Assembly (NCBI GenBank): GCA_017512805.1
Contig: JAFWES010000038.1
Span: forward strand, 1-64,000
Length of the DNA: 64,000 bases
Origin: Clostridia bacterium
GTDB taxonomy: Bacteria; Bacillota; Clostridia; Christensenellales; Aristaeellaceae
Direction: 5' to 3'
The position numbers and the translations under genes are program-made. Positions 28,883-32,026 of this stretch are shown here, piece by piece. Within the stretch, counting starts at the first letter, position 1. Each line of letters starts with the position of its first letter. The notes below the pieces were generated by a model. The model did not search any database. It was not told the DNA's origin and worked only from the letters and a program-made list of their open reading frames with translations.

Positions 28883-29899
28883 ATGGTTTATTCCTTTCAA
28901 TTATGGAGGCATCCCAACATTCATTATCGCGAAGCTGTTCAGCGTCTGAGTCGCTGTGAGCTTTTTTGCATGTTGCGCAGTCTCTCTATAGAAACGGTTA
29001 TCCGGCAGGACACAGTCGGCGCCGCTTTTTTTCTGACATTCGAATGCCGGCCTCTCTCCGATGGGGAGCTGGCCTTTCTCGCCGGCCATTCCTGTATTGC
29101 ATTGATGGCGGAAAAACAGGATGATCTGCTTCGTCCGCTCCCGGTTTCCCCTTCCTTCTATCTTCCGGAGGAATTGCCGGAGGTGCTGAAGTATAAGGGA
29201 AAAACAAATCCGACCTTGATGCGGATGATGTTTAACACGGCCCTTTCCCTGACGCCGTTTGTCCGCCAGGATGCCCCGGTCACCGTATTGGATCCCCTCT
29301 GCGGCCGGGGGACGGGTCTTTTCTGCGCTCTTCTCTCCGGCGCCAACGCGGTCGGGCTGGATCTGGACGGAAAGGATCTGAAGGAGGCGTCGGACTACTT
29401 TTCCCGTTTCCTGAAGCTGAACCGGTTAAAGCATACCTTTTCCCCGGTCAGTGAAACGGTTCGCGGCAGGCCGGTTTCCGGCAGAGTCTTTCGTTTCGCC
29501 GCCTCCAAAGAGGCCTTCTCCCGGGGGGATGTCCGCTTCCTCTCCTTCTTCGAAGGAGATACCGCGCTGGCTTCTTCCCTGCTGAAAAAGCAAAAGGCCC
29601 ACCTTCTTCTGGCGGATCTCCCCTACGGCGTTCAGCATGCGCCCCAGTCCGGGCCGAAACCGGAATCCTTTGAGGCCCTGCTTACCAGATCCCTGCCCGC
29701 CTGGAGAGCTGCCCTTCACCCCGGCGGCGCGCTGGCGCTGAGCTTCAACGACCTGACCTTCAAGCGTTGCCGCCTGCGTTCCCTGCTGGCGGATCACGGC
29801 TTTTCCCCGGTGGATCTTCCGGAATGTCTGAATCTCTCCCATGATGTGGAGCAGGCCGTCCATCGGGATCTGATTTTCGCGACGCTTCCCATTATCTGA
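28883..29899 (+). CDS. TRM11/UPF0020-like RNA methyltransferase
   Basis: 338 residues. The C-terminal half has the UPF0020-type SAM methyltransferase pattern: VLDPLCGRGTGLFCALLSGA (motif I), GLDLDGKDL, and LLLADLPYGVQHAP, where 'DLPYG' takes the place of the (D/N)PPY catalytic motif. The N-terminal half is divergent; a THUMP domain is not obvious. Related proteins methylate guanosine N2 in tRNA or rRNA. It lies between rpsU and the rho-like gene; the substrate is inferred to be RNA. Confidence 0.8.
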   Translation: MVYSFQLWRHPNIHYREAVQRLSRCELFCMLRSLSIETVIRQDTVGAAFFLTFECRPLSDGELAFLAGHSCIALMAEKQDDLLRPLPVSPSFYLPEELPEVLKYKGKTNPTLMRMMFNTALSLTPFVRQDAPVTVLDPLCGRGTGLFCALLSGANAVGLDLDGKDLKEASDYFSRFLKLNRLKHTFSPVSETVRGRPVSGRVFRFAASKEAFSRGDVRFLSFFEGDTALASSLLKKQKAHLLLADLPYGVQHAPQSGPKPESFEALLTRSLPAWRAALHPGGALALSFNDLTFKRCRLRSLLADHGFSPVDLPECLNLSHDVEQAVHRDLIFATLPII

Positions 29900-29915: not shown

Positions 29916-30008
29916 CCGCGACTGACGAGCGTATGCGAAGTCAGAGCGGAATGTGCCACCCCTGCTACAGGAGTCCGCGATTGACAAGCGAATGCGAAGT
30001 CAGAGCGG
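29916..30008 (+). repeat. Two hairpin-forming direct repeats in the rho leader
   Basis: A 34-base unit (CCGCGAYTGACRAGCGWATG and on to AGTCAGAGCGG) occurs at 29916-29949 and 29975-30008 with three differences. Each unit can fold with CTGAC or TTGAC pairing to GTCAG; the C-to-T change in the second copy keeps a G-U pair. They fill the leader between the methylase stop and the rho ribosome site. Confidence 0.75.
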
Positions 30009-30034
30009 TAACGACGATCACAGGAGGTTTTTCC

Positions 30035-32026
30035 ATGACCATTGCAGAACTTCAGTCCATGACAGTGCTCCAGCTTCGAAAGCTCGCCCGCGACCGGCAC
30101 GTGGTGCTGGGAGCCGGGTTGGATAAAGCCGGTATTCTGGCCAAAGTGGCGTCCAGTATGGGCCTCGATATGGTCCCCGAACAGCAGTCCTTCCTTTCCT
30201 CTTTGGAAGAGGCTCTTCCACAGGAACCCGTTCCGCAGGAGGCGGCTGTTCCTCCAGCGCCTGCGCAGGACGCTTCCGCGCCGGATCTGTCCGCGGAAAG
30301 TCCCCTGCCCGGGGCAGTCGCGCCCGTCTCCGCCGAAGGCAGCATACCCGAGGATTCTTCCCCGCGCCCGGAGGGTTTCTCCGACGTGCCCGCCGCCTCC
30401 GCTCAACAGAGAAAGCCTGCCGCCTCCCCAAAGGCGGAAGCTTCCGAGCCCCGGTTCCAGGCCGCCTGGCACAGCCCTGATTCTCCTCAGGCTCCCTCGC
30501 ATAACGCCTGGCAATCCCAGACCCCCAATAACCGCGGCTGGAACAATCCTTCTTCCGGCGACGCCCGACCCTCTCCCCTGCGGCCCCGTTCCTTCGGGCC
30601 CCGTTTCGGTCCTGCCTCTTCCGCGCCGGCAGCCCCGGCCGCCCCGGCAGCCCCGTCAGAAGGGCATCCCTCCTCCGCTTCCGTTCCGGAGCGGCGGACG
30701 GGCTTCTCCGGCGGCGGCTTCGGGCCCCGCCCGGCAGCGCAGGCGCCCGCTCAAGCGGCGCCCGCCGCGCCCATCGTCTCTCCTGCTCCCGAGGCCACCG
30801 TTGCCGCTTTGCAGGAAACGGTCGCTCCCGCCGCGGAAGCGCCTGCCACGCCCCCCACACTGGAAGAGCTTTTGTCTGCCGGCGATTTTGAGGAAGGCGG
30901 CGGGATCCTGGAGCTGCATCCTGACGGATACGGCTTTCTTCGGGCTTCCAACTTTATGCCCTCTTCCCGGGATATCTATGTCTCCATGGCTCAGATTCGC
31001 CGCTTTTCCCTGCGCACGGGGGATCTGATCCGCGGGAAGATCCGTCCCCAGCGGGAGGGCGACAAATACGCAGCCATGCTCTACATCGAAACCGTCAACG
31101 GCATTCCCGAGGACGAATTGACTGACCGGCCTTTCTTTGACGAACTGACCGCGGTGTATCCCACCCGGAAAATCTCTCTGGAGCCCAGGGACAGCAATCC
31201 CGCATCCCCCTCCCTGCGGCTGATCGACCTGATTGCCCCTCTGGGGTTTGGCCAGCGATCCCTGCTGCTCTGCCCTCCGGATACCCGGAAGCGGGACCTG
31301 CTGGCAGAATATGCCCGGGTGATCACCAGTAACTATCCCGACGTGGAAGTCCTGACCCTTCTAATCGATATGAACCCTGAGGATGTGACCGCCTACAGGG
31401 CCTCCGTCCCCTGCACGGTTCTGGCCTCCACCTTTGATCAGGCGCCCGAAGCCCATCTCCGGCTGACCGAAATGGTCCTGGAACGGGCCATGCGCCAGGT
31501 GGAACAGAAAAAGGACGTCATCATCCTGGCCGACAGCCTGACCCGTCTGGCGAAGATCTATACCTCCGCCGCCGCGGCCCAGGGGCGCAGCGTCCCCGGA
31601 ATGGTGAACCCCGCTTCCCTCCTTCGGGCCAAACGTCTCTTTGGCGCCGCCCGTGCCATTCGGGAAGGCGGTTCCCTGACGGTCATCGCCGCGATGGACA
31701 TCCAAACCGGGAACCGGGTGGATGATTCCATCGTGGAGGAATTCAAGGGCACCGCCAATATGGAACTGATGCTGGATCAGGCCGCTGCCCGGGCAGGGAT
31801 TATGCCTCCCATCAACCTGCAGCGCAGCTTTACCAAAAATACTGATATCCTTCTGAACGATCAGCAGAAAGAGGGCCTTTCCCTCATGCGCCAGCTTCTG
31901 GGCTCCGTCCCCTCGATTCAGGCCATCCCTCAGCTGGTCTCCATGATGGAAAAAGCCCCCACCAACGCCGAGCTCCTGATCAAAATGAAAGACTGGTTCC
32001 TTCTGATGAACCAGTCTAAAGCCTGA
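30035..32026 (+). CDS. rho: Rho-family transcription termination factor with degenerate ATP-binding site
   Basis: 663 residues. Order: Rho N-terminal helical domain (1-45), a 240-residue Pro/Ala/Ser-rich disordered insert, the cold-shock-like RNA-binding domain (about 288-360; LELHPDGYGFLRASN), then the RecA-like core. The core is clearly Rho: ASTFDQAPEAHLRLTEMVLE, ILADSLTRLAKIY, RLFGAARAIREGGSLTVIAA, VEEFKGTANMELMLD. However the Walker A KAGKT is DTRKR (416-420). The catalytic Glu/Arg of 'LIDERPEEVT' is Met446/Asn447. It may be ATPase-weak or inactive, or a specialised paralogue. ATG at 30035 has GGAGG. Identity as a Rho-fold protein is sure; activity is not. Confidence 0.9.
   Translation: MTIAELQSMTVLQLRKLARDRHVVLGAGLDKAGILAKVASSMGLDMVPEQQSFLSSLEEALPQEPVPQEAAVPPAPAQDASAPDLSAESPLPGAVAPVSAEGSIPEDSSPRPEGFSDVPAASAQQRKPAASPKAEASEPRFQAAWHSPDSPQAPSHNAWQSQTPNNRGWNNPSSGDARPSPLRPRSFGPRFGPASSAPAAPAAPAAPSEGHPSSASVPERRTGFSGGGFGPRPAAQAPAQAAPAAPIVSPAPEATVAALQETVAPAAEAPATPPTLEELLSAGDFEEGGGILELHPDGYGFLRASNFMPSSRDIYVSMAQIRRFSLRTGDLIRGKIRPQREGDKYAAMLYIETVNGIPEDELTDRPFFDELTAVYPTRKISLEPRDSNPASPSLRLIDLIAPLGFGQRSLLLCPPDTRKRDLLAEYARVITSNYPDVEVLTLLIDMNPEDVTAYRASVPCTVLASTFDQAPEAHLRLTEMVLERAMRQVEQKKDVIILADSLTRLAKIYTSAAAAQGRSVPGMVNPASLLRAKRLFGAARAIREGGSLTVIAAMDIQTGNRVDDSIVEEFKGTANMELMLDQAAARAGIMPPINLQRSFTKNTDILLNDQQKEGLSLMRQLLGSVPSIQAIPQLVSMMEKAPTNAELLIKMKDWFLLMNQSKA

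Follow-up and report, generated by a model that had tools for sequence, protein, structure and literature searches.

Rho is a ring that uses ATP to pull RNA off the transcription machinery. We consider it probable that the Rho encoded in the 64,000-nucleotide stretch of DNA analyzed here (the window), the only Rho found in its genome, goes back to an ordinary Rho encoded at that locus, is no longer an ATP-driven RNA translocase, and has been kept as an RNA-binding factor. Across a set of bacteria from gut and rumen, the sole Rho copy found lacks the ATP-burning parts and retains the RNA-gripping part, which suggests a new role. Genus and family codes (g.., f..) are labels of this analysis, with f1 designating the family of the window.

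Results

Domain organization of the window Rho and its locus

The domain order of Rho and a large Pro/Ala insert, both described in an earlier note on this DNA, were confirmed (Table 1). The protein passes the cutoffs of PF07497 (102 bits against 27), PF00006 (56 bits against 29.5), and NCBIfam NF006886 (Rho; 405.5 against 315), and it matches solved Rho chains at E 9e-93. It falls below the equivalog cutoff of TIGR00767 (400 against 509.45) and that of NF041509, paralog_Rho2, a short Rho paralogue (302.5 against 628). Pfam searches gave no separate match for the N-terminal domain and none for the insert.

Just upstream of rho lies a paired 26-nt repeat (29924-29949 and 29983-30008, starts 59 nt apart). 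With up to three mismatches it occurs at 10 sites in 7 places of the genome, three of which are pairs 59 nt apart, and the reversed pattern, used as a control, has 0 matches; the pair looks like a dispersed intergenic element. The preceding gene (28883-29899, forward strand) is methyltransferase-like with weak family matches (TIGR01177 at 20 bits, UPF0020 at E 0.15), and many genera have a relative close to rho and in the same orientation.

TABLE 1 Coordinates of rho, its ribosome-binding signal, and its domains and motifs in the window (Ec, E. coli K-12 Rho from NC_000913, the alignment reference)
Feature	Position	Strand	Basis
Shine-Dalgarno of rho, AGGAGG	30022..30027	+	Direct reading; 7 nt before ATG; strong
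rho orthologue, 663 aa, motor residues lost	30035..32026	+	ORF translation, profile matches
N-terminal domain, about residues 1-48	30035..30178	+	TIGR00767 match 2-652, from profile position 2
Pro/Ala-rich low-complexity insert, flanked by the N-terminal and RNA-binding domains	30179..30880	+	ORF translation; no Pfam match
Rho RNA-binding (OB) domain, residues 289-357, kept	30899..31105	+	PF07497
RecA-type ATPase domain, residues 394-599 (Pfam span)	31214..31831	+	PF00006
P-loop remnant DTRKR, residues 416-420 (Ec K181-T185)	31280..31294	+	Alignment to E. coli Rho
M446/N447 (Ec E211/R212)	31370..31375	+	Alignment to E. coli Rho
Walker B Asp D500 (Ec D265), kept	31532..31534	+	Alignment to E. 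coli Rho
Q-loop (Ec 278-290), now AAAQGRSVPGMVN	31571..31609	+	Alignment to E. coli Rho
R-loop (Ec 322-326), kept as QTGNR	31703..31717	+	Alignment to E. coli Rho
K601 replacing Arg finger R366	31835..31837	+	Alignment to E. coli Rho

Motor residues are lost in the window Rho and across its genus

Translation and alignment to E. coli Rho bore out three readings of the earlier note, namely, DTRKR in place of the P-loop at residues 416 to 420, Met/Asn in place of the catalytic Glu/Arg pair, and a kept Walker B Asp. E. coli A182-G183-K184-T185 reads T-R-K-R in the window, with no Walker A GK[TS]; the catalytic Glu and the Arg valve are replaced, the Arg finger is Lys, and R353 is Gly, and the protein keeps R269 and the R-loop Lys/Arg (R561) along with the Walker B Asp. 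Two readings had to be revised. The stretch corresponding to LTGGVDANAL, reported as a changed R-loop region, is indeed replaced, but it is the Q-loop, and the R-loop itself (TGSK in E. coli) is kept as TGNR. The arginine-rich C-terminal elements, described as kept, have in fact been altered at R366 and R353, and R347 is missing from 34 of the 36 Rhos found in the genus.

The altered residues are common to relatives, as the earlier note had proposed to check. E211 is missing in all 36 genus Rhos (V in 25, M in 4, L in 3, and I and A in 2 each), as are R212 and R353, the latter being Gly throughout, and at R366 there is Lys in 34 Rhos and Arg in the other 2. G183 is kept in 35/36, K184 in 36/36, and T/S185 in 21/36. 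The change of G183 to Arg (codon CGG) is private to the window assembly among the 36, seen in that one assembly; the nearest relative of the window Rho has the P-loop DTGKR. An alignment-free count in 30 genus proteins gave ERPE in 0/30 and GK[ST] within the last 420 residues in 21/30.

It could be argued that the ATPase has been rewired, such that catalysis now relies on a different acidic base (E or D in NPED) and the ring has remained a motor. E215 is Asp in 30/30 genus sequences, which also keep the Walker B Asp and R269, and 21 of the 36 Rhos combine K184 with T/S185. Against this, the losses of E211, R212, R353, and mostly R366 and R347 coincide, and 15/36 Rhos, the window Rho included, have no Thr/Ser in the P-loop, which leaves such a rewired motor very unlikely in our estimation.

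In E. coli Rho, the E211A substitution abolishes hydrolysis and leaves ATP binding and oligomerization intact, as reported in PMC4499133, and the roles of E211, R212, K184, the Arg finger, and the Q- and R-loops are set out in PMC8828861. On these grounds, we infer with high confidence that the genus Rhos do not hydrolyze ATP, and the earlier proposal of an ATPase-deficient Rho is well supported, the lost residues including the glutamate needed for hydrolysis. Nucleotide binding may persist in most species of the genus, since G183, K184, and T/S185 are kept at the frequencies given above; the window form probably does not bind ATP. Residue L320, which sits in the bicyclomycin pocket (PMC8828861), is Asp in 36/36 genus Rhos, and insensitivity to bicyclomycin is therefore expected.

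One Rho found per genome and a gene cluster in common with canonical rho

The window genome (3.07 Mb, 93 contigs, 87.8% complete) yielded one Rho and no second one. Of 45 genomes of the genus, 36 show a Rho match, one each, and none of the remaining 9 reaches 90% completeness. Each of the 13 genomes with completeness of at least 90% and contamination of no more than 5% has one Rho, as have the single-contig genomes G001 and G031 (97% complete). The second intact rho that the earlier note had suggested looking for was found neither in the window genome nor in these 13, and its idea of a dominant regulator, in the sense of one poisoning a normal Rho, is not supported; we also considered a second Rho as a partner of the motor-dead one and found none in its own genome.

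Two Rho matches occur in 6 of the 178 family genomes with a match. Those in G085 are adjacent pieces in different frames, those in G101 and G157 are pieces on separate contigs, and G120 has an apparent contaminant with motifs identical to those of the window's genus. In G092, a canonical Rho is accompanied by another Rho truncated by a contig end (L112), and G179 has two different non-canonical Rho genes (L136 and L181).

Among loci of at least 6 kb (own-genus loci were shorter and were left out), the order MtaB-HIT-methyltransferase-rho on one strand is found in canonical g19, g26, g39, and part of g4 and g38, and also in altered g8, most of g6, part of g33 and g35, and the window. These neighbors were not found in the loci of g7, g21, g24, g25, g31, g32, g36, g37, and the outgroup families. 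As the cluster is common to several canonical relatives, the altered gene is, for this portion of the family, the orthologue of ordinary rho. The earlier note would have been undone by relatives with an unaltered motif at this locus. Such relatives exist in other genera of the family only and not in the window's own genus, which shows an ancestral intact state and not a sequencing error. An artefact, or an assembly that missed a normal Rho and kept its paralogue, might be suspected given the incompleteness of the window genome and the draft state of most relatives. With 36 genus genomes in agreement, single-contig genomes holding one Rho each, and a gene cluster common to canonical rho, we find this scarcely credible.

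Altered Rhos are spread across the family and beyond

TIGR00767 matches 178 of 194 family genomes (those at least 85% complete) at E 1e-30, 72 of them above the cutoff; in samples from the larger groups, it matches 298 of 395 order genomes at the same threshold, 192 above the cutoff, and 172 of 195 class genomes at 1e-12, 165 above the cutoff. Four of the seven class genomes under the cutoff belong to this order, leaving about three outside it (G650, G665, and G735, as judged by E-values). No Rho was found at E 1e-30 in 16/194 family genomes, although four of these 16, all g36, show an eroded Rho at 1e-5, and none was found at E 1e-30 in 97/395 order genomes. A dead site cannot be concluded just from a low TIGR00767 score, because g6 lies under the cutoff yet keeps E211, R212, and GK[TS].

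We aligned 161 family Rhos with MAFFT, eight sequences having been dropped beforehand. All of K184, T/S185, E211, R212, D265, and R366 are present in 61, and 100 lack at least one of them. E211 is missing in 61/161, and 41 of these also have an altered G183, K184, or T185; the R-loop Lys/Arg is lost in 11 of the 61 six-residue Rhos (g24, g25, and g27). Twenty further Rhos fit the pattern, 14 of them canonical and from other genera and 6 from the window's genus and without E211.

On an rpoB tree of 66 genomes (75 were asked for, and 9 had no match), the label "all six residues or not" changes 11 times, at least 10 of these changes being forced by well-supported branches, compared with 22 in shuffles. 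Within f1, one clade (g1, g5, g6, g8, g18, g21, g33, and g35; support 97) is altered in all 19 genomes, and g7, which adjoins canonical g32/g37, and the g24/g25/g27/g31/g36 group stand apart from it. Outside f1, altered Rhos occur in f12, where both states are present within one genus, g50, and in individual genomes of f7, f5, and f23. The minimum numbers of kept/lost changes are 12 for E211, 7 for R212, 5 for R353, 7 for K184, and 12 for R366. Losses would appear to have begun early with R353, followed repeatedly by E211 and the P-loop, that is, with coupling going before hydrolysis and hydrolysis before nucleotide binding. The most eroded Rhos are those of g36 (L177 to L180), with uninterrupted frames of 520 to 600 aa; their ATPase domains are 22% identical to canonical ones, and their RNA-binding site is eroded as well.

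Selection on the altered protein

Of 18 RNA-binding domain positions that are invariant in 71 canonical Rhos, the 30 genus sequences keep 17 and lose 0, and of 98 such positions in the ATPase domain they keep 60 and lose 20. A further 45 positions between Ec 45 and 407 have become near-invariant in the genus with a different residue. The dN/dS of the genus, computed by NG86 from unsaturated pairs only, is 0.074 for the RNA-binding domain and 0.111 for the ATPase domain (250 usable of 435 pairs), compared with 0.231 and 0.162 in canonical g34 (104 pairs), and the ATPase values of canonical g4, g34, g37, and g38 range from 0.099 to 0.164. Compared with g34, the genus is therefore not relaxed, and by this measure (dN/dS 0.11) its altered ATPase domain is under strong purifying selection. 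ATPase values of 0.33 to 0.47 in g21, g24, g27, g33, and g35 indicate relaxation there.

Across genera, the two domains are about equally similar in six-residue Rhos (0.64 for the RNA-binding and 0.65 for the ATPase domain; 300 genus pairs), compared with 0.55 and 0.40 in the other Rhos (78 pairs). The contrast between domains is small in g6 and g18, whose identities to canonical Rhos are 0.52 against 0.50 and 0.53 against 0.47, respectively. At F64, R66, D78, and Y80, which we take to be the RNA-site positions of Rho, 94, 92, 96, and 97 of the 100 altered f1 Rhos keep the residue, respectively. That the RNA-binding domain is kept everywhere does not hold; it is kept in most of f1 and not in g36, and in f12, f7, f5, and f23 it is kept no better than the ATPase domain. 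Whether the lost invariant positions are concentrated in named motifs was also considered, and such a concentration is weak (7/18 motif positions lost; Fisher P = 0.051), with 5/9 lost in the catalytic subset (P = 0.020). The idea that the low-complexity insert arose with the loss of the motor was rejected as well, many canonical members carrying an insert too.

These patterns have to be weighed against slow decay, in which Rho termination has become dispensable, the gene is on its way out, and the RNA-binding domain is merely longer-lasting. Such a course would suit the extremely degenerate g36 and g7, the family and order genomes without a Rho match, the five genera with elevated ATPase dN/dS, and the loss of both domains in f12. 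We nevertheless consider it unlikely, since in the window's genus the ATPase dN/dS is like that of canonical genera, the 45 positions have settled on new residues, all 36 aligned Rhos are in one open frame through Ec residue 371, and the Shine-Dalgarno sequence is strong. By these measures, Rho looks to have settled into a new state in the window's genus, to be in ongoing, plain decay in several sister genera, and to be eroding in both domains in f12.

A remodeled NusG loop

NusG was found in 14/15 and 35/40 genomes, and 49 sequences were aligned with E. coli NusG, altered genomes of f1, f12, and f7 among them. In two clades that together hold all altered f1 Rhos of the tree, the loop that contacts Rho is longer by one residue (MFLGRE and variants) in 22 of the 28 genomes; 5 of the 28 are without the insertion, and 1 is cut by a contig end. 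The insertion occurs in 0/14 other f1 genomes and in 0/7 genomes outside f1. Its presence in canonical g32 and g37 is in keeping with a gain that preceded motor loss; the position of g29, canonical and without the insertion, relative to the two clades is unsettled on the tree. Phylogenetically, the insertion amounts to about one gain plus reversions and is for that reason a lead and not a statistical association. The altered Rhos of f12 (G334) and f7 (G219) are paired with an ordinary NusG loop. In the NusG KOW domains of g35 (L386 and L389) and g21 (L384 and L387), where Rho is strongly eroded, the end of the usual GPLENFTG is lost (e.g., GNLENYIV).

Discussion

From the kept RNA-binding domain, the core model, and the signs of selection, we infer an RNA-binding oligomer with a motor-free function. 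The AlphaFold2 model of residues 283 to 663 (34 sequences) is confident (pLDDT, 87.2; pTM, 0.87) and is silent on activity. The catalytic Glu, the Arg valve, the Arg finger, R353, and the Q-loop are replaced, the P-loop is broken in the window species, and what remains is the OB-fold RNA site, the N-terminal domain, the R-loop, and the low-complexity insert. Most likely, the protein would form an RNA-binding oligomer, perhaps an open ring, with a static grip on single-stranded RNA. Candidate roles are those of an RNA chaperone or of a condensate-forming or RNA-shielding factor, and alternatively the protein might be an ATP-free ligand of paused RNA polymerase. That the window Rho traps or regulates RNA, as the earlier note suggested, is possible given its retained RNA-binding domain. 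Translocation-driven termination by Rho would have been lost, a loss that we assume to be tolerated through intrinsic terminators, and the remodeled NusG loop may have been an early step.

Termination could also continue without ATP, the protein binding paused RNA polymerase together with RNA and inactivating the complex without translocation. The RNA-binding domain, the R-loop, and NusG are all present, and E. coli Rho is said to inactivate polymerase independently of translocation. A motor-uncoupled mode was once proposed for M. tuberculosis Rho, as recounted in PMC4499133, which itself argues against such a motor-free model for that species. As the NusG loop contacting Rho is altered as well, continued termination of this kind seems improbable to us.

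We used purine bias as a readout of lost Rho termination (an idea taken from PMC13323073). In f1, the purine content of rpoB is 0.519 in canonical (n = 20) and 0.515 in non-canonical (n = 26) genomes (P = 0.35), a comparison of one gene in which canonical members are little biased too, and at 4-fold sites P is 0.16. A/(A+T) at 4-fold sites is 0.271 in canonical and 0.202 in non-canonical f1 genomes (P = 0.045, uncorrected among six measures), and in f12, with 6 genomes against 6, none of the measures falls under 0.05.

In its broadest form, our reading is that Rho has turned into an ATP-independent RNA-binding machine, with the motor lost several times in parallel, the RNA site mostly kept in f1, the f1 losses seemingly following the one-residue NusG loop expansion, and a pseudo-motor ring being selected for a new role with RNA or RNA polymerase. 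We put the chances of this whole picture at about even.

The main survey of Rho sequences reportedly dates from 2013. In the open-access literature searched, no earlier description of a motor-less Rho from these bacteria was found, going by titles, and an earlier notice is possible. Rho is regarded as a motor that conserves its catalytic residues even in divergent forms (PMC8828861). The natural series from intact through uncoupled and hydrolysis-dead to P-loop-less Rho separates the grip on RNA from the pulling, making it testable whether Rho has an ATP-free selected function, and it provides a natural example of how a cell could dispense with the Rho motor and still retain NusG. It is also a warning for annotation, in that "Rho present" does not equal "Rho termination present."

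Compared with E. coli Rho (NF006886/TIGR00767), the window protein has the same domain order, OB domain, Walker B, and R-loop, whereas its P-loop, catalytic Glu, Arg valve, Arg finger, R353, and Q-loop are replaced; with the rho of canonical relatives, it shares the gene cluster. The alpha subunits of F1-type ATPases are non-catalytic RecA-type proteins that have likewise lost the catalytic Glu, but they pair with catalytic beta subunits, whereas no catalytic partner was found for the window Rho, such that any ring would be all non-catalytic. M. tuberculosis Rho resembles the window protein in its N-terminal insertion and weakened motor (PMC8828861). The long low-complexity insert recalls Bacteroides thetaiotaomicron Rho, which has a disordered region and forms condensates that reportedly raise termination activity; among relatives of the window Rho, the insert does not go with the loss of the motor, because its median lengths are about equal in canonical (199 aa; n = 61) and altered (208 aa; n = 90) Rhos, 33 sequences without a script-detected motif having been left out.
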